From positions 1 to 34,407 of the IMG/VR virus record IMGVR_UViG_3300031553_000019: DNA of 34,407 nt; one strand, given 5' to 3'. The translations under genes were made by a program, and so were the position numbers. A model generated the notes under the pieces. It did not search any database, was not told the DNA's origin, and saw nothing but the letters and a program-made list of their open reading frames with translations. The DNA comes from a virus. This document shows positions 576-33,678 of this stretch, in pieces. Position 1 is the stretch's first letter; each line of letters opens with the position of its first letter.

Positions 576-1732
576 TAACGCGACTTGATACCTTCGGACG
601 TCCCATATATGAAGCCGGCGATATTATCGCCGTTGCCAATTATAACTTCCTGGGACGGGCAAATCAGTTCTTATTCATGCCAAGAACCTTCTTTTACCAT
701 TACGGTCTTATCGACAAGTATATCGAAAGCGAAGATGATTACTCGATAATCGAATCCGTCAACAAGGGCCCGACAATGGGCCGGTTGTCATGGTACACGA
801 AAAAGGATTATCGAATTTATCGAGTAAACCAGGACGCAAAGGTCTTCAAATCTATAATCGAAGATTGGAACCATACTTTCACTAACCCGATCGGTGAAAT
901 CGCCGTCGACAAGGCGTCGAAGTTTGGCCGGCATGGGTACGACTTCTTACTTTTCGTCAAGTTATTCCTGGGTATCCTGGTTCACCAGGGGGGCCGATTG
1001 ATTCGCTTCCAGAAGCCCGAACGAATGACACCGGACGAAATCCCTTACGGGCGCGACAAGGCCCTTTGCTGTACTGAACTGGTTTTCGAAGCCTGGAATA
1101 CCGTCGGTATCCGGCTTCGGGCTTCGGGCCATGCCCCGTTACCCGCGGAATTCGAACTGGCGATAATGCGAAACGAACTGATTGGAATTGATTCGCATTG
1201 GGGCAAGAAGGGCAAGCCCTGGCGACCACATAGACTATATACTTTGTCACGTCCCCAGGTTGCTTCGCTGGAAACCCCGCCGCGGCCGTATATGGACCGC
1301 GCACGAAGCGACGTAACGCTTCACGAACCGACGACGGGGGAAGTCGAAGAACTGGCGGCTTTCGGGACGACCGCGCCTTCTGAAGCCGACGATATGCCGA
1401 CGTTCGCGAAGGCCACGGCTGAATTAGAAAAAGAACGACCTGGTCGCGACATTATCGCCCGCCAGGGGGGACAAAAGCGGAATCGTGTTCACCTATACGA
1501 GCAACCGTTCGGCTATCCGGTACGGCTTTGCGATTGGGTTGCTGAAGGTGAAATTGAAAAGATGTTCACCTGTGCGACGCGTGAAGAAACGAAAGCGACC
1601 ATAGCGACGTTAATTGAAGCGGGCGAAGTATCAGTTTGTAAGCATTGCCAGGCAATCGTTGAAGGGAAGCGACAACCGCCGATATACGATTCCCAGGTTC
1701 CCAAAGGCGGCGGGGGCGGCGGTGTAGCATGA
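572..1732 (+). CDS. Permuted papain-like (YiiX/NlpC-P60-type) cysteine peptidase or amidase
   Basis: The protein has 386 residues from an ATG at 572 with SD AAAGGGGGAA just upstream; a longer reading upstream of this lacks support. The N-terminal half has the circularly permuted papain-fold order: a GD-I strand near residues 16-20, a His in FYHYGL (H43), a YD pair (123-124) and then a nucleophile Cys in ALCCTELV (C166/C167). Families of this fold cleave peptide or acyl bonds, often in cell-wall material. The C-terminal part has a charged linker and a CKHC pair near residues 362-365, and ends in a Gly-rich tail. It sits directly before the small terminase gene and is coupled to its neighbours by ATGA overlaps. 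It could be an endolysin, a virion-associated lysin or an injected enzyme; I cannot choose. The gene is certain and the enzyme class is an inference. Confidence 0.65.
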   Translation: MITRLDTFGRPIYEAGDIIAVANYNFLGRANQFLFMPRTFFYHYGLIDKYIESEDDYSIIESVNKGPTMGRLSWYTKKDYRIYRVNQDAKVFKSIIEDWNHTFTNPIGEIAVDKASKFGRHGYDFLLFVKLFLGILVHQGGRLIRFQKPERMTPDEIPYGRDKALCCTELVFEAWNTVGIRLRASGHAPLPAEFELAIMRNELIGIDSHWGKKGKPWRPHRLYTLSRPQVASLETPPRPYMDRARSDVTLHEPTTGEVEELAAFGTTAPSEADDMPTFAKATAELEKERPGRDIIARQGGQKRNRVHLYEQPFGYPVRLCDWVAEGEIEKMFTCATREETKATIATLIEAGEVSVCKHCQAIVEGKRQPPIYDSQVPKGGGGGGVA

Positions 1733-2010
1733 CAAAGGATAAGACGGCTTTCAAAACAGAAGGCAACAAGCCCTTCGCGCTTCTTCAGGTTCCGGAATAT
1801 CTCATGGCCGACATAGTCGAAAACCCGCATATCGTCGACGAAATCAAGCGGTTAATCGGTATTGACGTCCTGATTGTTCGCCAGGATATTAAACTGACGA
1901 CCGGTAAAATGGCCCTGGAAGAAGCACAGCGGTTACACGACGAAATAGGCCGGTTCCTGGCTGAAGTTGGGGGAAGCGAAGATGCCGAATCAGAAGAAAA
2001 AGAAGACTGA
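1729..2010 (+). CDS. Hypothetical acidic small protein upstream of terminase
   Basis: The product has 93 residues, and its ATG overlaps the TGA of the peptidase gene. The centre is predicted alpha-helical (DEIKRLIGIDVL, then EEAQRLHDEIGRFL) and the C-terminus is an acidic run of Glu and Asp. The 3' end overlaps the start of the next gene, whose SD GGGGGAAG is embedded in this coding sequence. No cysteine motif or membrane segment is present. The product is not recognised; its place in the packaging operon suggests an accessory to terminase or head assembly, but nothing in the sequence proves it. Confidence 0.7.
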   Translation: MTKDKTAFKTEGNKPFALLQVPEYLMADIVENPHIVDEIKRLIGIDVLIVRQDIKLTTGKMALEEAQRLHDEIGRFLAEVGGSEDAESEEKED

Positions 2011-2656
2011 CAAAAGCCCCGCTTGGAATAGATTACGCGCAGAAGAACGGTCGCAAGCCTTCTTCCTGATATACGAACAAATGGGGACGACACGCACCCT
2101 GAAGCGATTATGGGGCCTTGTCCGTGGTATAGGGGTAGATATATCACTGAAGACGCTTGAACGCTATTCCGCTGAATATGGCTGGCAATCGAAGATACTG
2201 GAACGGTCGGCCCGCCTGGAAAGTGCCGAATTCGTGGAAATCAAGGACGCGGTCGACCGTATGAACGAAGAACATGCGAAGACTTTCCAGGATATAGGGG
2301 CGCTGGTCAAAGCCGGCGTTCGTGCATACCAGGACGAAATAATGAAGAAGGTCGAAATCGGGCTTCCGCCGACACTTGATATTGATTTAGTCACACTTGG
2401 TAAGCTGGCACAAACTTATCAATATGGCGAACGGCTGGCGCGGGGGTTGGCGACGTCGAAGGCCCAGGTAATTATCGAAGTGCTTCCGCCCCTGGTCAAA
2501 GACATATACGCCGTCTTCCTGGCTGTCAACGTGATTACGAACGACCCGCCCGAGCTGGTACAACGGCGCGAAGCCGAATTCATATCCCGCGGCGACCAGA
2601 TTCTTATTCAATACTACGGTCAAACTACTCCGGAACTGCCGGAAGGGGGCGGTTAA
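1982..2656 (+). CDS. Terminase small subunit (putative)
   Basis: The start chosen is the ATG at 1982, seven bases after SD GGGGGAAG, rather than an upstream in-frame TTG; this gives 224 residues. A helix-turn-helix-like segment lies near residues 30-75 (RTLKRLWGLV, SLKTLERYSAEYGW), matching the pattern of phage small terminases, which bind the packaging site and hand DNA to the large subunit. The middle is rich in long helices (DAVDRMNEEHAKTFQDIGAL), as expected for the oligomerisation region. It lies 2 kb upstream of the large terminase, with a damaged methylase and a PAPS-reductase-like gene in between. The assignment rests on architecture and position rather than a clear signature. Confidence 0.6.
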   Translation: MPNQKKKKTDKSPAWNRLRAEERSQAFFLIYEQMGTTRTLKRLWGLVRGIGVDISLKTLERYSAEYGWQSKILERSARLESAEFVEIKDAVDRMNEEHAKTFQDIGALVKAGVRAYQDEIMKKVEIGLPPTLDIDLVTLGKLAQTYQYGERLARGLATSKAQVIIEVLPPLVKDIYAVFLAVNVITNDPPELVQRREAEFISRGDQILIQYYGQTTPELPEGGG

Positions 2657-2844
2657 TGGAAATCATCGTCTTATCAATCTTCCCGGGTATCGACTTACTA
2701 GGCTGTGGATTCGAAGCCGAAGGGTACTGTGTGGTCAGGGGGCCCGACCTACTTTGGGGCGGTGACATTCGTCGGTTCCACGTTCCCGCCGGTCGATTCA
2801 ATGGAATAATCGCCGGCTTTTCTTCTGGCAGAAGGCGGCCCTGA
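2656..2844 (+). pseudogene. Truncated DNA cytosine-C5 methyltransferase (N-terminal remnant)
   Basis: The 62-residue frame begins with the SAM-binding motif I of C5-cytosine methylases in its phage form (LSIFPGIDLLGCGFEAEG), then GPDLLWGGDIRRF and GRFNGIIAG. In intact enzymes the last element is followed by GGPPC(Q), the catalytic-cysteine motif IV; here it becomes AGFSSGRRRP and stops. In another frame from about 2811 there is a sensible C-terminal-looking peptide (FFWQKAALTKLLDVMG) ending at 2892-2894. This looks like an internal deletion joining the methylase N-terminus to an unrelated or distal end. The remnant cannot methylate DNA. Its ATG overlaps the stop of the preceding gene, so the reading start is intact. 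Confidence 0.75.
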
Positions 2845-2926
2845 CGAAATTACTGGACGTAATGGGAATGAAACCGCGGGCGGATAAATGTTAATATGGC
2901 TATTAAGAAAACTTTGGGGGTGTATC

Positions 2927-3286
2927 GTGGAACTATTTAGTTTCCTGGTAGATTGGACGATTGTCGTCGGTGAAAAGACCGTCAAACTATATGTCGACGA
3001 AGAATGTACGACGCCGATGGTCGGGGCCGTCCATTTCGGCCAGATTCCACAGGGCGAAACCCGGGACTTCGAATTCTTCGTCAGGAATGAAGGCTTGATT
3101 CCGACCAATGTGGTCTTAACCTATACGCAACCGCCGGCTTACATGGCCGTAACTATGAACCCTGAAGCCCTGGTAAGCCTTCAGCCGAACGAAGTACGGC
3201 CCGTGACATTGACCCTGGTTGCCACAGCCGACGCACCGGTAGACGCTCAGGATAGCATTACAGTTACCGGTGACGATGGTACATAA
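2927..3286 (+). CDS. Small Ig-like/beta-sandwich protein
   Basis: This encodes 119 residues from a GTG at 2927, which has GGGGG six bases upstream; an in-frame ATG at 2888 would add a hydrophobic leader (MLIWLLRKLWGC) but has a weak ribosome site. From about residue 17 the sequence is a beta-rich Ig-like domain of the bacterial DUF11/CARDB/NEW3 style: HFGQIPQGETRDFEFFVRNEG, then VTMNPEALVSLQPNEV, ending in DSITVTGDDGT. Such domains decorate capsids or tails or bind carbohydrate. If the longer start is used, the leader could be a membrane anchor. The exact family is not identified. Confidence 0.6.
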   Translation: MELFSFLVDWTIVVGEKTVKLYVDEECTTPMVGAVHFGQIPQGETRDFEFFVRNEGLIPTNVVLTYTQPPAYMAVTMNPEALVSLQPNEVRPVTLTLVATADAPVDAQDSITVTGDDGT

Positions 3287-3292
3287 TAGGTT

Positions 3293-3320
3293 ACTTTGGT
3301 AAACCGCGGTAAACCAAAGT
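3293..3320. promoter_or_regulatory. Dyad symmetry (possible operator or hairpin)
   Basis: Arms ACTTTGGT (3293-3300) and ACCAAAGT (3313-3320) are perfectly complementary, and the centre CCGCGG (3304-3309) is itself palindromic on the same axis. The octamer GGTAAACC also occurs twice as a direct repeat inside it. The element sits just after the stop of the Ig-like gene and overlaps the start of the next small frame. It could be an operator or an RNA hairpin affecting translation. No function can be shown. Confidence 0.5.
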
Positions 3321-3469
3321 TGCCCGAAGTGACCCTGGACGAATGGCTTCAGATATGGGTCGCGCAGAAGATCGCCGATCGCGCTGGCATGAAGTTGTCC
3401 GTGACACGCGCCGGCGCTGGTCTTATAATCGGAATGGGAAGAACGAATGTCGAAAAGGTACAAAGTTAA
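3296..3469 (+). CDS. Hypothetical 57-residue protein
   Basis: An open frame from TTG at 3296 to TAA at 3467-3469 reads LPEVTLDEWLQIWVAQKIAD and then a Gly-rich segment (RAGAGLIIGMGRTN). Its 3' end overlaps the start of the PAPS-reductase gene at 3447. The start is uncertain because the region is taken up by a dyad repeat and lacks the usual AAGGGGG. Codon choice resembles the rest of the phage. The product is not recognised. Confidence 0.4.
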   Translation: MVNRGKPKLPEVTLDEWLQIWVAQKIADRAGMKLSVTRAGAGLIIGMGRTNVEKVQS

Positions 3470-4637
3470 CCTTCTTGACGAATTGAAGCCCCATGTCGAT
3501 ATTCCGTTCAGCGATAAGTACGTCATAACGAAGTCGATTATCGCGCGGAATCTTCGAGAACACAGGGGCAAAGCCGTCGTCGCTTGGTCGGGGGGCAAGG
3601 ATAGCACACTGGTATTATACCTGGTTCGCCAGCTCGAGCCCGATGTATCCGTGGTTTTCAACAACACCGGTGTCGAATATCCGGAAACCGTCGCCTATAT
3701 TCGCGAATTGGCGGATGCCTGGAAACTGAACTTCTTTGAAACGCACCCGGATACTACCTTCTGGAAGGTCGGCGAAAAGTTCGGTTATCCAGGCGGAACC
3801 AAACACGGGCAGAAGAAGATTCGGCGCGGTACGGCTTCCCCGCATTGTTGCTATTACCTGAAGGAAAAGCCGATGTTCGACATAATCCGCGAAAAGGGCT
3901 TTACGTGTTCATTCGACGGAGTAACCGCGGTCGAAAGTTGGGTCCGTATGTTCGTCGCCCGCGATAAGGGCACTTGTTACACGAACAAACATTGGGATAT
4001 TAAGAAGGTCAAGCCGATATTGTACTGGACTGAAGACGAAGTATTCCAGTTCTTCCACGACGAACGAATCCTTCTGAACCCGCTATACGAAAGGGGTATG
4101 ACCAGGGTTGGTTGTATGCCCTGCACTTCGTATAAGACCTGGGAAGAAGATTTGCGACGTGAGAATCCGAAATTGTATTCTATTGTCAAGTTCCGGAAGG
4201 ACGGGTATTATCAGCTTACCCGTCAGGCAATCGAAACCCTTCATTCTTCCGGGTTGAAAGTCGCTTTGTTGACAAAGGCGGGCCCGCTGGCGGCCAGGGA
4301 CTTCGACCTTCTGGAACGCGTCAAATTAACGCAACTTCGATTCGCCTTCGACGAACCTGGAATGGCGACTATCTTCACTGAAAAGATTCGACTGGTTCAA
4401 GAAACCGGATTGTGCAAACAGCCTTTTATTTATGTTTTGGTTGGCTTCAATACGACGTTTGACGAAGACCTGGAACGGTTGAATCTAATACGACGACTTG
4501 GTTGTCGTGCTTATGTAATGCGTTACGATACCGTTCGACTTGAACGACGTTATAATGAATTAGCGCGTTGGGCGAATATGTTTTGGTCATTTGCTAAGTA
4601 CGACTTCCAAGAATTCGTAAGAGTAGTTAGACAATGA
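3447..4637 (+). CDS. Chimeric protein: PAPS-reductase-like (PP-loop) domain fused to radical-SAM fragments
   Basis: Of 396 residues, 1-252 form a phosphoadenosine-phosphosulfate reductase/CysH-like ATP-pyrophosphatase domain: PP-loop SGGKDS at 48-53, CC at 134-135 and CMPC at 223-226, the CC...CxxC pattern that holds a [4Fe-4S] cluster in APS reductases. Phage homologues normally end soon after this. Residues 253-291 are nearly identical to the middle of the SPL-type radical SAM protein encoded at 32896-33678. Residues 292-396 (LRFAFDEPGM, IYVLVGFNTTFDEDLERL, RRYNELARWAN) look like the C-terminal half of a different radical SAM family. No CxxxCxxC cluster motif accompanies them. The N-terminal domain could act in sulfur transfer or DNA modification; the C-terminal part is probably inert. 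A real fusion and an assembly join are both possible. Confidence 0.75.
   Translation: MSKRYKVNLLDELKPHVDIPFSDKYVITKSIIARNLREHRGKAVVAWSGGKDSTLVLYLVRQLEPDVSVVFNNTGVEYPETVAYIRELADAWKLNFFETHPDTTFWKVGEKFGYPGGTKHGQKKIRRGTASPHCCYYLKEKPMFDIIREKGFTCSFDGVTAVESWVRMFVARDKGTCYTNKHWDIKKVKPILYWTEDEVFQFFHDERILLNPLYERGMTRVGCMPCTSYKTWEEDLRRENPKLYSIVKFRKDGYYQLTRQAIETLHSSGLKVALLTKAGPLAARDFDLLERVKLTQLRFAFDEPGMATIFTEKIRLVQETGLCKQPFIYVLVGFNTTFDEDLERLNLIRRLGCRAYVMRYDTVRLERRYNELARWANMFWSFAKYDFQEFVRVVRQ
4205..4320. repeat. 116-bp direct repeat, copy 1 (partner 33156-33271)
   Basis: This segment matches 33156-33271 in the same orientation with two mismatches (at 4211 and 4237); the last 83 bases are identical. The match ends abruptly at CTGGAACGCG on the 3' side. 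It marks the join between the PAPS-reductase part and the radical-SAM part of the chimeric gene. Confidence 0.95.
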
Positions 4638-6115
4638 CGATAAAAACACCGTTTTTGTTGAAGGATGCCGCGACCGTGGTCGGCAGACGGAAGCGCGAAG
4701 ACCTGGCGAACTGGACGAAGACGCCGTCGTCCCTAGCCGAGCATATATCCCGCGGTTCTTACACACGACCGAAGCATATCGAGTACCTTTCGAATCGCAT
4801 TTCGGAGATAGGCGAAAGGCAATGCTTCTTCGTATTCAATCTTCCGCCCCAACACGGGAAAAGCGAACTGGTTTCACACTGGACACCGGTATGGTTCCTT
4901 CGGAAGTTCCCCTGGAAGAAGGTCGGCCTGGCTTCTTACGAAATGGGATATGCTTCCGAATGGGGCGGTAAAGCGAAGGAAACGATAAACGACAATTACG
5001 ACGAACTTCGTCTTCAACTTCGCCAGGACACGAAAGCGAAGGGCCGGTGGAACCTTCGCGGTTACGGCGGTGGCATGTTCGTCGCGGGAATCGGCGGGCC
5101 CTTCACCGGTCGGGGTTTTGACCTGGTCATTATCGATGACCCAATCAAGAACGATGCCGAAGCCCTTTCCGATGTTTACCGCCGGCGGAACTGGAACTGG
5201 TATCGAACGGTTGCGCGGACCCGGCTTGCCCCTGGCGGTTCGATTATCGTCATTATGACCCGCTGGCATGAACAAGATATGGCCGGCGCATTGTTGGGGA
5301 ATCCGCCCGAAGAAGAACAAGAAGGTGTCCTGGACGAAGACGTGCAACCCGATTCCTGGGAATGTATCAATCTTCCCGCGCTGGCGGAAGAAAACGACAT
5401 CCTGGGACGGCGTCCAGGCGAAGCCCTTTGGCCCGAACGGTACAATGAAATCGCCCTTCGTCAAGTTCGAATATCGTCCGGCCCGTTTTGGTGGTCGGCG
5501 CAGTACCGCGGAAAACCACAACCGGAAGGCGGGGGAATCATAAAATTACCCTGGTTCCGTTCATACAAAGACGAAGATTTACCGCCCATGTTTTCGCGTA
5601 AAATCCAGGTGTGGGATACAGCTCACAAGGAACTTCAACGACACGACCGGTCGGCGTGTCTGACGATAGGATACCAGCGAAAACCGCCCAGATACTATTT
5701 GCTTGACTTGTACGTTGCCAGGCTGACGTTCCCCGACCTGATTCGCGCGTCGACGTCGCAGTACGATAAATGGCAACCGGAACGGGTATTGATTGAAGAT
5801 AAGTCTTCCGGAATATCTCTTATTCAGCAATTGCGACGCGATACCACGGTTCCGATTCGAGCGATTAAAGCGATTGACGATAAGGTCACGCGGGCCCATA
5901 CCGTGACCGGTATTATCGAAGCCGGCCAGGTGCTTCTTCCGGAACGGGCCCCGTGGTTGGCCGACTTCCTGAAGGAAATCGGGGACTTCCCGACCGGCGC
6001 GCATGACGATATTGTGGACGTCCTTGTCCACGGGCTTCGTTTTCTACGGCCCAGGTTGGGCGGCGTGGAAGCCGGCGTAATGGGTGAAGAAAAGACGTCG
6101 CACTGGCGCGAGTAA
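4634..6115 (+). CDS. terL: Terminase large subunit (ATPase and nuclease)
   Basis: The 493-residue protein is the packaging motor that pumps DNA into the prohead and cuts it. The ATPase domain has a Walker A in PPQHGKSE (71-78), a Walker B in LVIIDDP (164-170) and coupling motif MTRWHEQD (208-215). The C-terminal RNase-H-like nuclease has its acidic residues in VWDTAHK (D328), LIEDKSSG (E388, D389) and HDDIVD (457-462). Length and motif order are normal for the family. It starts at ATG 4634, overlapping the end of the chimeric gene, with SD-like AGAG only; the coupling may drive initiation. An AT-rich intergenic region follows it. The assignment is certain. Confidence 0.97.
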   Translation: MTIKTPFLLKDAATVVGRRKREDLANWTKTPSSLAEHISRGSYTRPKHIEYLSNRISEIGERQCFFVFNLPPQHGKSELVSHWTPVWFLRKFPWKKVGLASYEMGYASEWGGKAKETINDNYDELRLQLRQDTKAKGRWNLRGYGGGMFVAGIGGPFTGRGFDLVIIDDPIKNDAEALSDVYRRRNWNWYRTVARTRLAPGGSIIVIMTRWHEQDMAGALLGNPPEEEQEGVLDEDVQPDSWECINLPALAEENDILGRRPGEALWPERYNEIALRQVRISSGPFWWSAQYRGKPQPEGGGIIKLPWFRSYKDEDLPPMFSRKIQVWDTAHKELQRHDRSACLTIGYQRKPPRYYLLDLYVARLTFPDLIRASTSQYDKWQPERVLIEDKSSGISLIQQLRRDTTVPIRAIKAIDDKVTRAHTVTGIIEAGQVLLPERAPWLADFLKEIGDFPTGAHDDIVDVLVHGLRFLRPRLGGVEAGVMGEEKTSHWRE

Positions 6116-6347
6116 ATTGAAATTACACTATATTGAACTTTTTCGTAAAATATAATTGACTGAATTAGCTGGAAATCCGTAACTATATTTGAATTTATAA
6201 AAAACAAATTGTTTTCTGAAGGTGCGCAAAACGACTTTTTAAGTGGTTCGCAATGGTACGGGTTATTGTGAACCCGCGGTCACTAGAAAACGAACCGTGA
6301 CATAAAAACATATTGACATTAAAACATAAAAACATATTGACGTTAAA
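6116..6347. other. AT-rich non-coding region after terL with hairpin and repeats
   Basis: No gene with a ribosome site is visible in these 232 bases, which are much richer in A and T than their surroundings. They contain a hairpin at 6259-6276 (CGGGTT, loop ATTGTG, AACCCG), further inverted pairs GGTTCG (6245-6250)/CGAACC and GTCAC/GTGAC, and at the end a 24-bp tandem repeat. Such a region next to terminase could be a packaging site, a regulatory region or a second origin. Nothing in the sequence decides. Confidence 0.6.
6300..6347. repeat. Two tandem 24-bp AT-rich repeats directly before a start codon
   Basis: The units 6300-6323 and 6324-6347 each begin ACATAAAAACATATTGAC and end in TTAAA, with one mismatch (A/G at the base after TTGAC). 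The second unit abuts the ATG at 6348. Each contains a TTGAC hexamer-like element that resembles a -35 box, but no correctly spaced -10 is clear. Confidence 0.85.
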
Positions 6348-6870: not shown

Positions 6871-8292
6871 ATGACGAACGATAGGCCGAATAACCCGTCA
6901 AATACTCAACGAAGACGTACCAAAGACCGCCTATCTGGGCGGTCTTTTCGCAGATTCCAGGGCAACGGTCAAAACGACGGAAAGTTTACGGTGATAGGTG
7001 TCACCGGATTAAAACATATGGGCGGACGCATTCGGGAAGAATACCTGAATGCAATGAAGAACTGGTCGACCGAAATCAAGTTGTATCTGGAAATGAGGGA
7101 CGACCCGATAATCGGCGCACAGCTCGACGCGATTAAACTTCCGCTTCAGGCCGCCGGATTCGACGTTGAACCGTCCCCTGGCGGGGCCCCGAATGACGAA
7201 GCCGCCGCCGAATGGCTTTGGGATTGCCTGAATAAAATGGACGGCCAAACCTGGAATTCTCATGTCGAAGACGCCCTGGAATTACTGGACTTCGGGTTTT
7301 CGCTTGGTGAAATCGTCCTGGAAAAGCGCGTCGACGGTCGGCTTTGGTTGAAGAATATCGACCCGCGGGGCCAGGAAAGCCTTGTGAATTGGGATTACGA
7401 CCCGAACGAAACCGACAAACTGGTCGCCTTCGTTCAACAAGACCCGAACGGCCAAGGAACCTTCGAGATACCGATTGATAAGTGCGTACATTTCAAATTC
7501 CGCGGTCGGAAGGGAAACCCACAGGGCCATTCTGTACTTCGGGCCCTGTACCGGCCCTATAAGTTCGTTCGTAACCTGGAAGACCTGGAAGGAATCGGTA
7601 TCGAACGTGACGTCGGCGGAATGCCGATCGCTAAACTGAAGGAAGGCGGTTACGAATCGAACGACATTACCGAATTAAAAAAGGTGCTGAAGGGCCTTCG
7701 CAAAGACGAAGAAGTTTACCTTATCGAGCCCGAAGGTATCGACATTCGCGCTTATTCCGGCGGATCGAAGATATACGACGTCAACCAGGTTATTGACCGC
7801 TGGCACAAAGTAATGCTCATGCGGTTCTTTTCACAGTTTCTTATCCTGGGAATGGGAAACGTCGGGACACAGGCCCTTGTCAAAGGGTCCCATGACTTCT
7901 TCGCGCTGGCCCTGGAAGCCGTCCAGCGATATCTTCTGGAAACCTGGAATCTTCAACTTGTACCGTACCTTTTCCAATTCAACGCCTGGACTGGAATATC
8001 CGGATACCCGTCGATTGTTTGGGAAAAGCCGGGCAAGGTAGACCTGGGTGCTATGATTAACTTCCTGAATACCGCGATCGGCGCGAAGGTCATTACCCCG
8101 ACCGATGTTGACGAAGACCATTTGCGGTCAATCGCCGATTTACCCGATCTTCCGGAAGACGAACGCGGGATGCCCCGCGACGTCGAATCGCCGCCCCTGG
8201 GCGGTCTTTTCGACCTTCCGGATAAGTTCGACAAATTGGACAAAACTATGAACAATATCGAAAGGGAACTGGAACTGGCGGGTAAGCAATGA
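6871..8292 (+). CDS. Portal protein, Mu gp29-like (DUF935 type)
   Basis: The start is the ATG at 6871, seven bases after AAGGGGG; an in-frame TTG six bases earlier is less likely. The 473-residue product forms the dodecameric ring at the head vertex through which DNA enters and leaves. Family features visible are the RDDPIIGAQLDAIKLPLQAAGFDVE region (about 75-100), the FGFSLGEIVLEK strand, RHSVLRALYRPY-like GHSVLRALYRPYKFVRNLEDLE (about 220-240) and the later helical wing with GSHDFFALALEAVQRYLLETWN. The C-terminal tail is acidic and ends in a predicted coiled coil. It overlaps the next gene by four bases (ATGA), and a gpF-like gene lies one small gene downstream as in Mu. The assignment is confident at superfamily level. 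Confidence 0.88.
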   Translation: MTNDRPNNPSNTQRRRTKDRLSGRSFRRFQGNGQNDGKFTVIGVTGLKHMGGRIREEYLNAMKNWSTEIKLYLEMRDDPIIGAQLDAIKLPLQAAGFDVEPSPGGAPNDEAAAEWLWDCLNKMDGQTWNSHVEDALELLDFGFSLGEIVLEKRVDGRLWLKNIDPRGQESLVNWDYDPNETDKLVAFVQQDPNGQGTFEIPIDKCVHFKFRGRKGNPQGHSVLRALYRPYKFVRNLEDLEGIGIERDVGGMPIAKLKEGGYESNDITELKKVLKGLRKDEEVYLIEPEGIDIRAYSGGSKIYDVNQVIDRWHKVMLMRFFSQFLILGMGNVGTQALVKGSHDFFALALEAVQRYLLETWNLQLVPYLFQFNAWTGISGYPSIVWEKPGKVDLGAMINFLNTAIGAKVITPTDVDEDHLRSIADLPDLPEDERGMPRDVESPPLGGLFDLPDKFDKLDKTMNNIERELELAGKQ

Positions 8293-8582: not shown

Positions 8583-9406
8583 TGGCAACAACGGTACGTC
8601 GTCGCGGCGCGCATGGCCGACGTCCAGCGGGTCAGAAGCAACGTATCGGTTCGGGTGATTGGGAAAAGTCGACGAACCGACAGCAACGTAAAATCGTCCG
8701 GACATATGACGAATGGGTCGCCGCCCTGAAGCGTGAATTGAACCGCCTGGCAAAGCGGGGGGCCAGTCTTCCGGAACTTCACGCGCACATAGATTCACAG
8801 ATTCCCGTCCTGGAAGAATGCCTGGTCGAAGTAATGACAAAGGGCGTCGAATCGGCTGTAAAACAGACTGCCGGCCAGCGGGCCGAACTTCCCCAAATCC
8901 GCGCGAAGGCGCAACGTATGATTGAAGAAAACGTGACCCTGGTACGCCGGAATCTGATTCCCCATATTCACGAAAAAATATCCCTGACACTGGCCGCCGC
9001 CGTTCCCGGGCTTATCCTGGGCGGGTTGGCCCTTGAACAACAAAAGGCGGTTGCAATGGCGATTCGAAATGCTTCAGCAGCGACCAGGTCAGCGCCGGCG
9101 CAATTCGCCGGCGGGTATTGGGTTGCCATATTCGAAACACAGAAGTCGCTTGGTGAAGTCCGCGAAGACGAACGGGCTTCCCAGGGCCTAGAGCCGGAAC
9201 CGGTACGCTGGAACCTGGACCCGAGGGCTGAACATTGCAAACCTTCGCCTGGATTCTTCGGGTGCCCGCAAATGGCAAAGGATTATAAGTCATGGCGCGA
9301 CCTTCCGACGGTTCCAGGCGGACAGGTAACTTGCCGCGGGAACTGTCGGTGTTATCTGACCGTATTCCGTGACGGCCAATGGCAAAGGGGCGTATATGAT
9401 GACTGA
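8582..9406 (+). CDS. Head morphogenesis protein, Mu gpF/SPP1 gp7-like
   Basis: The protein has 274 residues. The C-terminal part (about 209-260) shows the typical pattern of the gpF/gp7 minor head family: RWNLDPRAEHCKPSPG, a second Cys at 228, DLPTVPGG and then CRGNCRCYL. The central region has a hydrophobic helix pair near LTLAAAVPGLILGGLALEQQ. In Mu and SPP1 the family member binds the portal and is taken into the head in few copies, where it is needed for DNA to stay or be ejected correctly. Its position right after the portal fits. The N-terminus is very basic (VRRRGAHGRRPAGQKQR), consistent with DNA contact. Confidence 0.85.
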   Translation: MATTVRRRGAHGRRPAGQKQRIGSGDWEKSTNRQQRKIVRTYDEWVAALKRELNRLAKRGASLPELHAHIDSQIPVLEECLVEVMTKGVESAVKQTAGQRAELPQIRAKAQRMIEENVTLVRRNLIPHIHEKISLTLAAAVPGLILGGLALEQQKAVAMAIRNASAATRSAPAQFAGGYWVAIFETQKSLGEVREDERASQGLEPEPVRWNLDPRAEHCKPSPGFFGCPQMAKDYKSWRDLPTVPGGQVTCRGNCRCYLTVFRDGQWQRGVYDD

Positions 9407-9428
9407 CGACGAACAAGGGGGTAATAAA

Positions 9429-9695
9429 ATGCCGGAACCAAATCAACTTCGTATCAAGTGTAAAGGCGGGAAATTGACCGAAGTCCTGGTAACGAACGAA
9501 GACGGCAAAGTTAAGAATGTGACTTCCGCTTTGCGTAGCTGTACGGGTATTACTACACCACACGAATGTTCAAATGAATTTATAGCACAAAAAAACGGGA
9601 CTTCAACCACGATTCGTTATGTAGCATTATTGAAGCAATTGGATTATACTCTGGAACCCGAAACCGCGAAGCAAATTTACGCCCTGGGAGACTAG
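9429..9695 (+). CDS. Hypothetical 88-residue protein
   Basis: I chose the ATG at 9429 because AAGGGGG lies seven bases upstream; ATGs at 9396 and 9399 also have an AAAGGGG and would lengthen the protein by about ten residues. The product is beta-rich (LRIKCKGGKLTEVLVTNEDGK) with two further cysteines (RSCTGITTPHEC). It lies between the gpF-like and zinc-knuckle genes and is not recognised. Confidence 0.65.
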   Translation: MPEPNQLRIKCKGGKLTEVLVTNEDGKVKNVTSALRSCTGITTPHECSNEFIAQKNGTSTTIRYVALLKQLDYTLEPETAKQIYALGD

Positions 9696-9698
9696 CCA

Positions 9699-9902
9699 TT
9701 GATTGACGGTAATACCGTATATTGTGATTGTTGCGGTACCGAAAAAATGGCCCAGGTTGTCGGTGATAATCTGGTAATTAAAGACCGGCGACACGGGCAA
9801 AGGCACGTCGTTGTTATTAGAATTAGTGACCTTCTTGACATATTAAAAAAGAAGTCCGATAATGTCCCCAAAGACCAGGCCGTCGAAATAACGGCAGATT
9901 AA
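9699..9902 (+). CDS. Small Cys-rich protein
   Basis: This frame starts at TTG 9699, with GGGAG nine bases upstream, and gives 67 residues. YCDCCGTEK near the N-terminus is a metal-binding knuckle, followed by a beta-rich part (VVVIRISDLLDIL) and an acidic end. The start codon is the less certain part. The transcription terminator at 9946-9987 follows. It is one of many small cysteine-pair proteins in this window; function is unknown. Confidence 0.55.
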   Translation: MIDGNTVYCDCCGTEKMAQVVGDNLVIKDRRHGQRHVVVIRISDLLDILKKKSDNVPKDQAVEITAD

Positions 9903-30723: not shown

Positions 30724-31416
30724 ATGGGGGCCGAAAGTCGATTATTACTCGACGAAAGGCCCCTGGTCGTCATTCCCGAACTGGCTTGTTCTATCGGCTT
30801 GAAGAACGCGATTGTCCTTCAACAAGTCCACTATTGGGTTCGACGGAATCAGCGGGCCGAACGAAACTTTCACAACGGTTACTTCTGGACGTACAACACG
30901 TTCGAAGACTGGCAGAAGCAATTCCCTTTTTGGTCAGTATCGACGATAAAGCGAATCTTCGCCGATCTGGAAAAGAAGGGGCTTTTGATAACCGGACGTT
31001 ACAACCGCCTGAATATCGACCGGACGACCTGGTATCGAATAAATTACGAACGGCTTTCCGATAGTGTCAAATTGACACAATGGTCGTGTCAACTTGACAC
31101 TATGCATAGTGTCAACCTGACACGACCATTACCAGAGACTAACACAGATATATTAAACGATAAGAAGATAGAGATATGGCAAAAAACATTATCTTCTTTG
31201 AAGGGCCAGGTGAACAAATCGAATTTCAATACCTGGCTGGTCGACCTGGAACCGTTATCGTTCGACGGCGAAGTCTTCGTCGTCGGCGCCAAGAATACGT
31301 TTATTGCTGAATACCTGGAAAAGAACCTTCGGTCGCTGATTGAAAAGGAACTGACGACCGCTTCCGAAACGAGCATCCAGGTTTCCTTCCAGGTACGAAC
31401 CGGAAAGGAAGAATAG
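30724..31416 (+). CDS. Replication initiator: winged helix fused to DnaA domain I
   Basis: Residues 1-110 of this 230-residue protein form a winged-helix unit typical of phage replication initiators (LKNAIVLQQVHYWVRRNQ, WSVSTIKRIFADLEKKGLLIT, TWYRINYERL). Residues 149-225 match DnaA domain I: IWQKTLSSLKGQVNKSNFNTW lines up with LWQQCL..LP..EFSMW of E. coli DnaA, then FVVGAKNTFIAEYLEKNL with YAPNRFVLDWVRDKY. Domain I binds DnaB helicase in bacteria, so this protein could bind the phage origin and load host helicase. No AAA+ motor is present. The linker region is encoded by the iterons and AT-rich sequence of a likely origin. The domain calls are strong and the mechanism is inferred. Confidence 0.85.
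   Translation: MGAESRLLLDERPLVVIPELACSIGLKNAIVLQQVHYWVRRNQRAERNFHNGYFWTYNTFEDWQKQFPFWSVSTIKRIFADLEKKGLLITGRYNRLNIDRTTWYRINYERLSDSVKLTQWSCQLDTMHSVNLTRPLPETNTDILNDKKIEIWQKTLSSLKGQVNKSNFNTWLVDLEPLSFDGEVFVVGAKNTFIAEYLEKNLRSLIEKELTTASETSIQVSFQVRTGKEE
31064..31200. other. Probable replication origin inside the initiator gene
   Basis: Three 15-bp dyads lie at 31064-31078 (GTGTCAA-A-TTGACAC), 31086-31100 (GTGTCAA-C-TTGACAC) and 31109-31123 (GTGTCAA-C-CTGACAC), with starts 22 and 23 bases apart, close to two helical turns. Copies two and three belong to a 52-bp near-palindrome (31079-31130) centred on ACTATGCATAGT. From about 31131 to 31200 the sequence is AT-rich (e.g. ACAGATATATTAAACGATAA), suitable for unwinding. 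The arrangement equals iterons plus unwinding region inside lambda O. Confidence 0.8.
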
Positions 31417-31629
31417 ATGCCCTGGCCGAAGTTACCAAAGATTATCGTCCCGGGCGACCCGAACTGCGTCCACAGGGAACGGGTATCACCGGACGGCCTG
31501 ACCGGTACGTGTACCGAATGCGGTCAGGTCAGGGATTACAGCGTTTGCCTGGGCCCCTTCGACGAAGCCGTTCCCCTGACGATTAAAAACCGGCGCGCGA
31601 TTGAAGATTGGGGGGAATATGACGACTAG
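31417..31629 (+). CDS. Small Cys-rich protein in the replication operon
   Basis: ATG 31417 follows the initiator stop directly (SD GGAAAGGAAG) and gives 70 residues. CVHRERVSPDGLTGTCTECG has three cysteines and a histidine in zinc-ribbon spacing, followed by a further Cys (YSVCLG). Its end overlaps the resolvase gene by eleven bases. Zinc binding is likely; function unknown. Confidence 0.65.
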   Translation: MPWPKLPKIIVPGDPNCVHRERVSPDGLTGTCTECGQVRDYSVCLGPFDEAVPLTIKNRRAIEDWGEYDD

Positions 31630-32104
31630 GTTTATCGCCATTGACCCGTCGACGACTATCACCGGCTGGTCGGTCTTCGAAGACATAAAACTGGTGGCAT
31701 GGGGGCGAATCGACACCAGGAAGGTTCAATATGCCGACCGGTTCCGCCTGATAGTTGCCGGCATTGCCGAAGTCTATATGAAGTACCGGTTCGACGAAAT
31801 CGTAATCGAAGACGTATCGTATGCCTGGCATTCGAAGAATCGGAACCGGAATATCGCCGGCCTTCAGTCGGTCTTCCGTTCAATCAAGGATTACGCGATA
31901 ACGTCCGACTTTCCGCTTACGGCTTATAATCCCGCGACCTGGAAGAATTCGGTTGTCGGGGCTCACACCGCGCCGAAGGAAATCACGAAGAACAATATCT
32001 TACTCCGGTTCCCGCGGGTCCCTGATAATTTGACTGATCACGAATACGACGCAATTGGAATCGGGGTTCACCACGGGGCTATAATGGCTTACGAAAGGGG
32101 ATAA
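31619..32104 (+). CDS. RuvC-like Holliday-junction resolvase (RNase H fold)
   Basis: The ATG at 31619 follows GGGGGAAT, giving 161 residues. It has the RuvC order: a first acid in FIAIDPSTTITGWSVF, an acid in EIVIEDVSYAWHS after a strand, a Asn-rich loop and helix (RNRNIAGLQSVFRSI), and a final pair in DHEYDAIGIGVHHGA. Such enzymes cut four-way junctions so that replicated and recombined phage DNA can be packaged. Its length suits the small phage RuvC-like group. It lies between the two DnaA-derived genes, which supports a replication/recombination role. Confidence 0.8.
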   Translation: MTTRFIAIDPSTTITGWSVFEDIKLVAWGRIDTRKVQYADRFRLIVAGIAEVYMKYRFDEIVIEDVSYAWHSKNRNRNIAGLQSVFRSIKDYAITSDFPLTAYNPATWKNSVVGAHTAPKEITKNNILLRFPRVPDNLTDHEYDAIGIGVHHGAIMAYERG

Positions 32105-32105
32105 T

Positions 32106-32261
32106 ATGGAAGAATTGAAGGAACTGGCCCGAAAAGCGTTCCGATCCGAAATCAAGTTTTATCGCGCTTGGTTTCGCCTGAAGCGTTCAGTTCAGATTAT
32201 CAACGAAACGATTTATTGGGGCCCGGGAAATGAAGCGGGATACGACAATGACCGCAGTTAA
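32106..32261 (+). CDS. Hypothetical 51-residue basic protein
   Basis: ATG 32106 with AAAGGGGATA upstream reads MEELKELARKAFRSEIKFYR, then a basic helix (WFRLKRSVQIINETIYWG), and stops at 32259-32261. It overlaps the start of the DnaA-domain-IV gene by 14 bases. Too short for a family call, but ribosome site and codon style support it. Confidence 0.55.
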   Translation: MEELKELARKAFRSEIKFYRAWFRLKRSVQIINETIYWGPGNEAGYDNDRS

Positions 32262-32748
32262 TGCCAACGATCTTCCGGAAGAAGTACTGGAACGAATCGG
32301 CCTATCGAAAAGCAACGGGAAACTGACCGCGGAAGCGAACAATAAGGTCGCGGCCCTGGGTAAAATTCTTCAGATTGTCGGTTCAATGTCGAAGACCGAT
32401 GCCCGTTGGGTACTGGCCGAAGCCATGTCATATTGTCGGGCCGAACGTGATAATTCCGATCCTAGAACGGTAATCCAGGTTGTCGCGAAGTTCTTCAATA
32501 TCCCGCCAGCGGAAATCCTGGGTCGCCGGCGTAATGAAGTCGTTGTTCATGCCAGGCAAATCGTCATGTACTTATTATGGTTGTCGAATCGATATACCCT
32601 TCAGCAGATCGGCGACGCCCTGGGTAATCGGTCGCCGGCGACTATAAGTTACGGTTTCCAGACCGTCGGCCGGCAGATGTCAAAAGACCCCGTCATGGCC
32701 GACTGGCTGAAGCAAATCGCTATCGAATTAGATTGGAGTTTACCATAG
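32248..32748 (+). CDS. Stand-alone DnaA domain IV (DNA-binding) protein
   Basis: The ATG at 32248 with GCGGGA eight bases upstream is preferred; ATG 32230 adds six residues. Of 166 residues, 73-145 match the C-terminal DNA-binding domain of DnaA: VIQVVAKFFNIPPAEILGRRR, then HARQIVMYLLWLSNRYTLQQIGDALG and NRSPATISYGFQTV. The AAA+ domain is missing and the N-terminal 70 residues are an unrelated helical part. Within the signature loop, E. coli GRDHTTV reads NRSPATI, so the residues that contact bases (D433, H434, T435 in E. coli) are changed while the arginines before and RQ are kept. It probably binds DNA with a specificity other than the DnaA box, perhaps at the phage origin. Confidence 0.85.
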   Translation: MTAVNANDLPEEVLERIGLSKSNGKLTAEANNKVAALGKILQIVGSMSKTDARWVLAEAMSYCRAERDNSDPRTVIQVVAKFFNIPPAEILGRRRNEVVVHARQIVMYLLWLSNRYTLQQIGDALGNRSPATISYGFQTVGRQMSKDPVMADWLKQIAIELDWSLP

Positions 32749-32912
32749 TAAACAAAAGGGTAAAATCATATTGGTTGCGTCTACGTGACGGAACCGGCGG
32801 GGCGGTTTCCGAAGGCGTATCACTTGAAGACGCTTGCCGAAGAGCTGGTGTCCGTGTTGAAGACGTTGAAGTTATTAACGTAAAAGAGGTAGACAATGAT
32901 ATACGAGACTAG
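32733..32912 (+). CDS. Hypothetical small protein overlapping the radical SAM gene start
   Basis: An open frame from a TTG at 32733 to TAG at 32910-32912 contains VKSYWLRLRDGTGGAVSEGV followed by SLEDACRRAGVRVEDVEVINVKE, which reads like a genuine small alpha/beta protein. The true start is unclear: AAAAGGG at 32754-32760 lies inside it and a TTG at 32775 is 14 bases further. The 3' end overlaps the radical SAM gene. Not recognised. Confidence 0.4.
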   Translation: MEFTIVNKRVKSYWLRLRDGTGGAVSEGVSLEDACRRAGVRVEDVEVINVKEVDNDIRD

Positions 32913-33678
32913 GGGCAGAGCCCGCGAATACTTCGAACTGGCGGCGAACCTGTATTCCGGTTGTGAACACGGGTGCGTTTATTGCTTTGGGCCCGACATA
33001 TTGAGTAAGAATCGCGCCGACTTTGTCCAGCGGGCGTCACCGCGGAAGGATGCCATAAAGCAACTAGTGCGGGACGCCGACCGCTTATCTAGGCGGGGGG
33101 AAACCCGTCATATCCTTTTATCGTTCGTGACCGATCCGTACCAGCCGGCGGACGTGTATTACCAGCTTACCCGTCAGGCAATCGAAATCCTTCATTCTTC
33201 CGGGTTGAAAGTCGCTTTGTTGACAAAGGCGGGCCCGCTGGCGGCCAGGGACTTCGACCTTCTGGAACGCGACGATTTATTCGGCCAAACGCTGACATTG
33301 ATCGATCAGCGCCGGTCGGTAGTGTGGGAACCGAACGCGGCGCTTCCGGAAGCACGAATGGCAAACCTGAAGGAAGCGTATCTGCGCGGGATAGGAACCT
33401 GGGTATCATGCGAACCGGTAATTGACCCAATGGAAACGCTGGCTTGTATATCCGCGACCGCCGATTATGTCCAGCATTACAAGGTCGGAACCCTGAATTA
33501 TCCACGGAAGATTCCACAGGATTTGCGGCCCGTGGTCGAAAGGATAGACTGGAAAGCGTTCGCGCAGAATGTCGTAATCCTATTGAACCGCCTGGGTAAG
33601 TCGTACTATATCAAGAAGGACTTGGCCCGGTTCCTGAGAAAACCCGACGGAATACTTGTCGGCGGGTTTCCGAAGTAA
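32896..33678 (+). CDS. SPL-type radical SAM protein
   Basis: At 260 residues, this enzyme has the radical SAM cluster motif CEHGCVYC (23-30, C-x3-C-x2-C), typical of the SplB/COG1533 family related to spore photoproduct lyase. ILLSFVTDPYQPAD and LKVALLTKAGPLAARD are conserved strand-loop parts, and VSCEPVIDPMETL a later one. Members use S-adenosylmethionine to start radical chemistry; phage versions have no proven substrate, with DNA repair or modification suggested. SD AGAGGTAGAC lies upstream of ATG 32896. Its central 116 bp recur in the chimeric gene at 3447-4637. Confidence 0.85.
   Translation: MIYETRGRAREYFELAANLYSGCEHGCVYCFGPDILSKNRADFVQRASPRKDAIKQLVRDADRLSRRGETRHILLSFVTDPYQPADVYYQLTRQAIEILHSSGLKVALLTKAGPLAARDFDLLERDDLFGQTLTLIDQRRSVVWEPNAALPEARMANLKEAYLRGIGTWVSCEPVIDPMETLACISATADYVQHYKVGTLNYPRKIPQDLRPVVERIDWKAFAQNVVILLNRLGKSYYIKKDLARFLRKPDGILVGGFPK
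33156..33271. repeat. 116-bp direct repeat, copy 2 (partner 4205-4320)
   Basis: This copy matches 4205-4320 with two mismatches. Here it fits the surrounding radical SAM protein on both sides, so this is the likely parent copy. Confidence 0.95.

Follow-up and report, generated by a model that had tools for sequence, protein, structure and literature searches.

A probable winged-helix phage initiator with a C-terminal DnaA domain I and iterons in its own gene, accompanied by a separate domain IV protein

How a phage might start replication when the two ends of DnaA lie on different proteins and the ATPase between them is missing is the question raised by the virus contig IMGVR_UViG_3300031553_000019, the whole of which (34,407 b) was analysed and is called the window below. 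The proteins concerned are P1 (230 amino acids, aa), with an N-terminal winged helix and a C-terminal DnaA domain I, and P2 (166 aa), which carries DnaA domain IV. A sequence-only reading had described the pair as a DnaA taken apart. Based on profile searches, structure models, in-gene repeats and a comparison with related phages, we consider it fairly probable that P1 is a replication initiator whose winged helix acts on iterons within its own gene and whose domain I, of the type present in Dehalococcoidia, docks host machinery, with P2 as a non-obligatory companion.

Domain structure of P1 and absence of the DnaA motor

The Pfam family DnaA_N was matched by residues 150-209 of P1 (E=1.1e-10; 41.6 bits, cut-off 24.6), and residues 147-225 matched a domain I hidden Markov model (HMM) built from 89 bacterial DnaAs with E=3e-30. 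An AlphaFold model of the protein consisted of a winged helix (residues 18-122), a linker (124-140) with a predicted local distance difference test (pLDDT) score of <50, and a domain I fold (141-225) with a pLDDT of ~90. Comparison of the latter with the solved DnaA domain I 4tps gave a Z score of 15.6 and a deviation of 1.1 A over 84 residues. The domain I proposed for P1 by the sequence-only reading was thus recovered by Pfam, custom HMM and structure alike. An Asn-x-Phe motif, placed by gapless alignment to 4tps, is kept in domain I of P1 and of the two related phages that have this domain, L180 and L181; its site is presumably that of Phe46 in E. coli.

The N-terminal half belongs to a large phage initiator family (phrog_6493, E 2.4e-42; phrog_11233, E 3.2e-24). 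Its fold gave Z scores of 9.5-10.4 with the N-domains of the plasmid initiators 4pql, 4pt7, 5kbj and 4pta, the first three of which we take to be N-domains of pSK41-type RepA, and of 8.1 with the N-domain of DnaD. P1 matched 154 phage and 98 plasmid records, mainly in the N-terminal half among the matches listed (best 40 of 154 and best 30 of 98). By Pfam its winged helix is not HTH_36 (E 0.18), the family to which the winged helix of L181 was assigned. P1 combines an initiator winged helix with a C-terminal DnaA_N and has no AAA+ part of DnaA.

DnaA_N and Bac_DnaA_C each occur once, as Pfam domains, in the 34.4-kb contig. The HMMs from the 89 DnaAs gave nothing significant for the AAA+ core and lid in P1 or P2, and custom HMMs (E 0.01) for the DnaA AAA+ core and for a DnaC-like loader had no match in any window frame of at least 40 aa. 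No AAA+ family was found among the 26 window open reading frames (ORFs) scanned with Pfam. The NCBIfam DnaA model scored 38 and 67 bits for P1 and P2, respectively, against a cut-off of 344, so that AAA+ domain III is not indicated on either protein. Bacterial DnaA is a single protein containing this domain, whereas the window encodes its two ends separately and lacks domain III. The absence of the motor held up as claimed earlier, since no full-length DnaA-like ATPase was found in these frames of a contig that may be incomplete.

Iterons and probable origin of replication

Three copies of GTGTCAANNTGACAC, at steps of 22 and 23 bp, are present in the P1 gene and are followed by the AT-rich minimum of that gene. 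Iterons and AT-rich stretch fall between the regions coding for the winged helix and for domain I. With up to two mismatches allowed and both strands counted, nine matches to GTGTCAANNTGACAC were found in the window, six of which are the three iteron sites, against 0.57 expected; none of 100 shuffles reached nine. The P1 gene probably harbours the origin of the phage, in and beside the part encoding the flexible linker.

Nine related phage contigs (L180, L181, L003, L004, L005, L006, L185, L186 and L243) were found by means of P0 (the gene upstream of P1), RuvC, P1 and P1 domain I. Seven of them are 28-36 kb in size, the other two being shorter fragments, and in the seven group members compared the large terminase shows 70-81% identity. 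Two winged helices (WH-A and WH-B) occur in the group with two C-terminal halves, one being DnaA domain I and the other having the motif DPIPNYGKEAKAIDRM or a close variant and no Pfam match. All four combinations are present: WH-A with domain I (window, L180), WH-A with the other half (L003, L004, L005, L006), WH-B with domain I (L181) and WH-B with the other half (L185, L186, L243).

In the initiator genes of the WH-A phages (window, L180, L003, L004, L005, L006), sites similar to GTGTCAANNTGACAC with up to three mismatches number 3, 3, 2, 4, 5 and 4, and sites similar to AATCGGTA with up to one mismatch 0, 0, 0, 1, 0 and 0, respectively. The WH-B phages (L181, L185, L186, L243) have 0, 1, 1 and 0 sites of the first kind and 2, 3, 3 and 3 of the second. 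Steps between repeats are mostly 22 or 45 bp. The predominant repeat matched the winged-helix type in all ten members, the rows for the window, L185 and L186 not being independent, as the two motifs were derived from them. This co-variation suggests that the P1 winged helix binds the iterons, and it agrees with the earlier designation of the winged helix as the putative origin binder. The 80-bp GC minimum of the P1-type gene was 0.31, 0.34 and 0.20 in the three domain I phages, each time after the iterons, against 0.38-0.44 at various gene positions in six phages of the loader type described below; this contrast may be one of composition, as whole-gene GC also differs between the two sets.

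Module exchange and the helicase loader

The seven sisters with the DPIPNYGKEAKAIDRM-type half (L003-L006, L185, L186, L243) have the gene order initiator - (loader) - RuvC, as in the window, with P0 in front in six of the seven. They have either the winged helix and in-gene iterons of the window (WH-A) or the alternative pair (WH-B), and their C-terminal half differs from that of P1. Neither DnaA domain I nor domain IV was found in them (whole contigs of L003-L006; examined stretches of L185, L186 and L243).

Directly after the initiator, six of these seven phages encode a DnaC-like AAA+ loader of ~195 aa. The four loaders scanned with Pfam matched IstB_IS21 (E 5e-14) and, more weakly, the DnaA ATPase domain, and the one compared with PHROG matched a DnaC-like loader (E 1.8e-36). 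Such a loader was found in none of the three phages with domain I (window, L180 and L181; whole contigs, one loader query). A phage origin of DnaC and DnaI, with one domestication in Chloroflexi, is described in one report (PMC5109545). The exchange in the present group fits a domain I that serves as a docking half and makes a phage loader unnecessary.

Probable bacterial source of the domains and probable host

A pattern scan of a genome collection with P1 returned 31 loci, five of which were DnaA genes (four from Dehalococcoidia and one from Chloroflexi) with 40-54% identity to the C-terminal half of P1. When 294 Dehalococcoidia genomes were searched with P1 for a winged helix joined to domain I, 241 were matched and, among the matches listed, all were in the domain I end. 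The locus L051, considered as a possible full-length relative of P1, was discarded: those of its frames that were examined are without a DnaA_N-like end, and the sole DnaA_N match of that genome is a 460-aa frame. The ten best matches of P1 among domains I of Dehalococcoidia DnaAs were 43-57% identical to its C-terminal half, and the best matches of P2 among their domains IV 34-42%. The best bit score of P1 was 80.5 with a Dehalococcoidia DnaA against 42.7 with other groups.

Single-domain trees were built on a panel selected in part for similarity and are weak. In them the domain I sequences of the three phages formed one clade (0.979) inside a 25-member node (0.884) whose other members were Dehalococcoidia DnaAs only, with none of the 16 from other groups (midpoint rooting). 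Domain IV of P2 was likewise placed among Dehalococcoidia DnaAs, in a node of ten (0.933) together with five DnaAs, including those of L059 and L062, both with the motif SPATI, and four other phage sequences (L032, L191 (two) and L192). For the panel, 60 Dehalococcoidia loci had been taken for resemblance to P1 or P2 and 30 by domain IV score; the trees were built without rows of <400 aa, rows of <150 bits or exact duplicates, and the panel of other groups was small (16). Based on these sequence affinities the host is likely, though not proven, to belong to the Dehalococcoidia.

The domain IV protein P2

P2 was matched by Pfam Bac_DnaA_C (E=4.1e-17; 62.4 bits, cut-off 31.5) at residues 79-146 when counted from the ATG at 32230, which are residues 73-140 from 32248, and by an HMM built from bacterial DnaAs (E ~1e-27). 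The modelled domain deviated by 0.8-0.9 A from 3pvp and 1j1v, two solved DnaA DNA-binding domains, and the assignment of domain IV to P2 by the sequence-only reading was thereby sustained. The start at 32248 is preferred, as it is from there that the N-terminal part aligns with its L181 homologue. This part was modelled with a confidence of 57-76, and its structure was not used for inference. Since it resembles the free-standing L181 protein, P2 looks like a phage module joined to domain IV; an HMM made from the two sequences matches them by construction. The composition DnaA lid plus domain IV was rejected, as a lid-only HMM scored 1.4 bits on P2 residues 1-76 and the N-terminal part resembles a free 68-aa phage protein. 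In the direction of a lid point the many tblastn matches that start at residues 10-18 and the NCBIfam DnaA model, which starts at residue 47; the N-terminal part might at most be a decayed DnaA lid.

The recognition helix of P2 contains SPAT. The D-H pair of the DnaA-box signature D-H-x-T, for which P2 has RSPATI instead, is kept in 43 of 73 Dehalococcoidia DnaAs and 14 of 16 others, so the signature is not universal among DnaAs; RSPATI itself is present in two of the 73 and none of the 16. DnaA-box contacts in E. coli presumably involve the DHTT residues, that is, the position of SPAT in P2, which may read a site other than the classical DnaA box. Sites similar to the DnaA box TTATNCACA (up to one mismatch) were not enriched in the window, with 15 found and 16.8 expected, and no consensus for the site of SPAT-type DnaAs emerged from the dnaA flanks of ten loci. 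Among the 73 Dehalococcoidia DnaAs, 30 have a drifted recognition motif in domain IV (SPATI, SASTV, NPSTV, NASTV, NHATI and others), which predicts altered DnaA boxes in this class.

Bac_DnaA_C was absent from the contigs of both sisters that share domain I (L180 and L181), so that P2 appears as an accessory in the group and not as part of a fixed pair. The earlier suggestion that domain IV recognises the origin in trans was not borne out, given these sisters, the unenriched box-like sites and the SPAT in place of D-H. Small proteins with domain IV were found in 46 viral contigs, none with a DnaA core in the stretches examined, and a P1-type winged helix was near such a protein in two of them (L191 and L192; stretches examined). 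In L191, two small domain IV proteins (7941-8288 and 9361-9840) flank one P1-type initiator gene.

A second contig with both domains on separate proteins

L227 (11.7 kb examined of 11.9; 74% GC) is unrelated to the phage group of the window. Within region 3319-6329 it encodes a 140-aa protein with domain IV (3319-3741; E 9.4e-19; motif RDHTTV) and, ~2 kb downstream of that gene, a protein with domain I (E 2.2e-12) at its end which is related to phage replication and primosomal proteins (phrog_270, E 7e-14). No DnaA core was found in the stretch examined. The region may be Mu-like; we take neighbouring ORFs to resemble Gam and GemA. L227 was the only one of the 46 domain IV contigs to show domain I as well in the stretches examined, with HMMs that were biased to Dehalococcoidia, or included L227 itself, and could miss a divergent domain I.

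Comparison with other initiators

Domain I of a Bacillus DnaA matched 58 plasmid records. Among the best 40 of these, 16 were annotated as "DnaA N-terminal domain-containing protein" and seven as "helix-turn-helix domain-containing protein", the others being dnaA or unannotated. Six plasmid proteins were examined. Four of them (Niallia, B. licheniformis pCR3, Paenibacillus pAZOPL1 and Terribacillus) have, like P1, a winged helix and a C-terminal DnaA_N. They differ from P1 in their winged-helix family, which is HTH_36, below the cut-off in Terribacillus (22.5 vs 25 bits). Neither a DnaA core nor domain IV was found within ~3 kb of these genes, and in-gene tandem repeats were found in neither of the two plasmid genes tested. 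The fifth protein, from a Rubrobacter plasmid, is an RPA/TrfA/Rep3 initiator with a C-terminal DnaA_N slightly below the cut-off (24.2 vs 24.6 bits), and it too has neither a DnaA core nor domain IV within ~3 kb. The sixth, from the Leptolinea plasmid L253 (Chloroflexota), represents a further case of domain I and ATPase on different proteins: in region 1724-3834 a gene with an N-terminal DnaA_N is located two genes downstream of an AAA_22 ATPase.

The initiator of Brevibacillus phage Jenst (YP_009199065.1, PHROG 26369) follows the plan of P1, with a helix-turn-helix (HTH), in-gene 22-bp repeats and a C-terminal DnaA_N, but its HTH belongs to HTH_36, unlike that of P1. No DnaA core or domain IV protein was present in the 6.7 kb read around it. 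The replication initiation protein of Brevibacillus phage SecTim467 gave the same domain I match, the gene having been read in Jenst only. Beside the 22-bp repeats, three DnaA-box-like sites similar to TGTGGATAA (up to one mismatch) lie clustered in the Jenst gene. Domain I of Jenst scored 55.5 bits with Bacillota DnaA and 44.7 with Dehalococcoidia DnaA, and in the tree it paired with a Bacillota DnaA (0.722), apart from that of the window. Being nearer to Bacillota by both score and tree, it makes the two fusions look independent. In viral contigs a Jenst-type domain I was found only in Jenst's own contig.

In lambda O and in staphylococcal RepA of the pSK41 type, the N-terminal half binds iterons in its own gene and the C-terminal half serves later steps. 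P1 would work in the same manner, but neither of the two has DnaA domain I as its C-terminal half. For helicase loading lambda depends on a protein of its own, P, whereas no phage-encoded loader was found in the window, L180 or L181 (in L180 and L181 with one loader query).

Proposed mode of initiation and alternatives

From the domains, iterons, AT-rich stretch, modular exchange, loader absence and tree position, all of them features of the sequence, we infer the following mode of initiation. The winged-helix half of P1 would bind the three iterons inside its own gene and would strain, or help to open, the AT-rich stretch adjoining them. Domain I would then dock the machinery which it normally calls to oriC, most likely host DnaB, directly or via a host loading factor, and the phage would thereby need neither the DnaA motor nor an AAA+ helicase loader of its own. 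P2 would be a phage module with an acquired domain IV of the same bacterial type, and would most likely act by binding DnaA sites of host type, as competitor or regulator. Domain I is taken as the host-docking, probably helicase-recruiting half because it replaces another C-terminal half and no loader gene was found with it. The docking part of the earlier proposal, that domain I recruits host DnaB, is retained on this ground; DnaB itself is a presumed partner.

Several observations weigh against this mode of initiation. L243 has the DPIPNYGKEAKAIDRM-type half and no loader, either in the slot after the initiator or in the 16.5 of 34.4 kb examined, and the same holds for the more distant L008 (whole contig) and L191 (14.5 of 23.8 kb); L007, with yet another C-terminal half, also has none. 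These four cases weaken loader absence as a diagnostic of domain I: phages with other C-terminal halves may also have no linked loader, and its absence alone proves nothing. With a single loader query, a divergent loader may have escaped notice in L180 or L181. The difference in loader occurrence, six of seven against none of three, has a hypergeometric probability of 0.033, which overstates independence, as the ten phages are related. The position that we take to be that of E. coli Glu21 is Asn in P1, and likewise in Dehalococcoidia DnaAs. E. coli domain I contacts DnaB via Glu21 and Phe46 (PMC5448010); the Asn-x-Phe at the presumed Phe46 site, by contrast, is kept in all three domain I phages and counts in favour of the proposed mode. 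A terminase search of 393 Dehalococcoidia genomes revealed no near provirus, the two matches at E 1e-60 being 35-41% identical.

Among the rivals to this reading of P1, the one that carries most weight is that its domain I pairs with domain I of full-length host DnaA, whose motor would melt the origin in trans. A Trp that presumably corresponds to E. coli Trp6 is kept in P1, L180 and L181, which speaks for such pairing; Trp6 is the dimerisation residue of E. coli domain I (PMC5448010). The TGTGGATAA-like cluster within the Jenst gene could likewise place host DnaA at the Jenst origin. Against it, the window shows no enrichment of DnaA-box-like sites, with the reservation that SPAT-type sites may differ from the classical box, and an in-gene box cluster was present in none of the six plasmid proteins examined (five had no such site and one had one). 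Pairing with host DnaA is on balance unlikely. Still less probable, to the point of being doubtful, is that P1 and P2 form a DnaA split in two, in which domain I recruits the helicase and the phage origin is recognised in trans by domain IV. Both domains are placed among DnaAs of the same bacterial class, the two genes are 0.8 kb apart on one strand, and L227, with domains I and IV on separate proteins, adds a little; but neither sister with domain I has domain IV, domain I was seen in L227 alone among the 46 domain IV contigs (stretches examined), and the winged helix already accounts for the iterons. The broader proposal that phages have more than once put both DnaA ends on two cooperating proteins, as a distributed, motor-free initiator (window and L227) in which domain I takes the place of AAA+ loading while domain IV is directed in trans to host-type sites, is improbable, if slightly less so.

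A further possibility concerns P2, and perhaps the free domain I, and is compatible with the initiator role favoured for P1. P2 may be a host-takeover factor which occupies host DnaA sites and stops or retimes host initiation, or else a transcription factor. As a reading of P2 the competitor or regulator role is preferred, while the host-takeover proposal as a whole is put forward tentatively. With RSPATI and no AAA+ part, P2 could bind but not initiate, and small domain IV proteins are common in phages (46 contigs), mostly away from P1-type initiators (near them in two). Phage proteins targeting host initiation are known, for example YfdR, which binds DnaA domain I (PMC5448010). The proposal is weakened in that no SPAT-type DnaA site could be derived, and hence there was no site to search for.

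Novelty and implications

By titles and the beginnings of abstracts, neither a DnaA split over two proteins nor a phage initiator with DnaA domain I was the subject of any paper found. The sequence-only reading had called the two-protein arrangement undescribed; this stands for the literature so searched, but L227 is a second example, and initiators of the winged helix plus domain I kind are already deposited for Bacillota plasmids and for Brevibacillus phage Jenst. New, as far as the literature searches go, are the four-way module exchange and the way in which repeats and loader correlate with it, the occurrence of a Dehalococcoidia-type domain I on an initiator, and the splitting of the DnaA ends in two unrelated contigs.

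The phage group constitutes a natural domain-swap experiment with two origin-binding and two docking halves, and it points to DnaA domain I as a portable docking module that can function apart from its ATPase. It makes testable what domain I contacts at helicase loading outside E. coli, here in Dehalococcoidia, for which no literature on such contacts was found. Judging by Jenst and the plasmid proteins, fusion of domain I to unrelated winged helices seems to have occurred in mobile elements on several occasions. The host could be read from the fused domain, provided that each is similar to the domain I of its host lineage.

Gene map of the locus and other genes of the contig

The features of the locus are collected in Table 1. 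No exact direct end repeat of 15-199 b was found in the contig, which may therefore be incomplete.

Table 1. Position of the initiator locus features in the window
Feature	Position	Strand	Basis or remark
P0, upstream neighbour of P1	30013..30720	+	Present in 8 of 9 other group members; served to find the group
P1, winged-helix replication initiator (probable) with C-terminal DnaA domain I, 230 aa	30724..31416	+	ORF, PHROG, Pfam DnaA_N, AlphaFold model
P1 winged-helix half, model residues 18-122	30775..31089	+	AlphaFold secondary structure; fold matches
Three iterons GTGTCAANNTGACAC at 31064, 31086 and 31109, inside the P1 gene	31064..31123	.	Repeat count
AT-rich stretch adjoining the iterons, probable unwinding element	31123..31202	.	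80-bp GC minimum of the P1 gene, GC 0.31
P1 DnaA domain I, residues 147-225	31162..31398	+	Pfam, custom HMM, structure match
Slot between P1 and RuvC; DnaC-like AAA+ loader here in 6 of 10 group members	31417..31618	+	In the window only a 70-aa ORF (31417-31629)
RuvC-like resolvase, encoded downstream in 10 of 10 group members	31619..32104	+	Pfam RuvC, E 8e-9
P2, DnaA domain IV joined to an apparent small phage module, 166 aa; upstream ATG at 32230	32248..32748	+	ORF, Pfam, L181 homologue
P2 N-terminal module	32248..32460	+	31% identity to the free-standing 68-aa L181 protein; not recognisable as DnaA lid
P2 DnaA domain IV (Bac_DnaA_C), recognition motif RSPATI	32464..32667	+	Pfam, custom HMM, structure match

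Elsewhere in the window, a PAPS-reductase-type protein (3447-4637; Pfam E 4e-29) is encoded between the genes for the terminase subunits. A Radical SAM protein (32896-33678) is located near the replication genes and was also identified in the examined stretches of six of the nine other group members.

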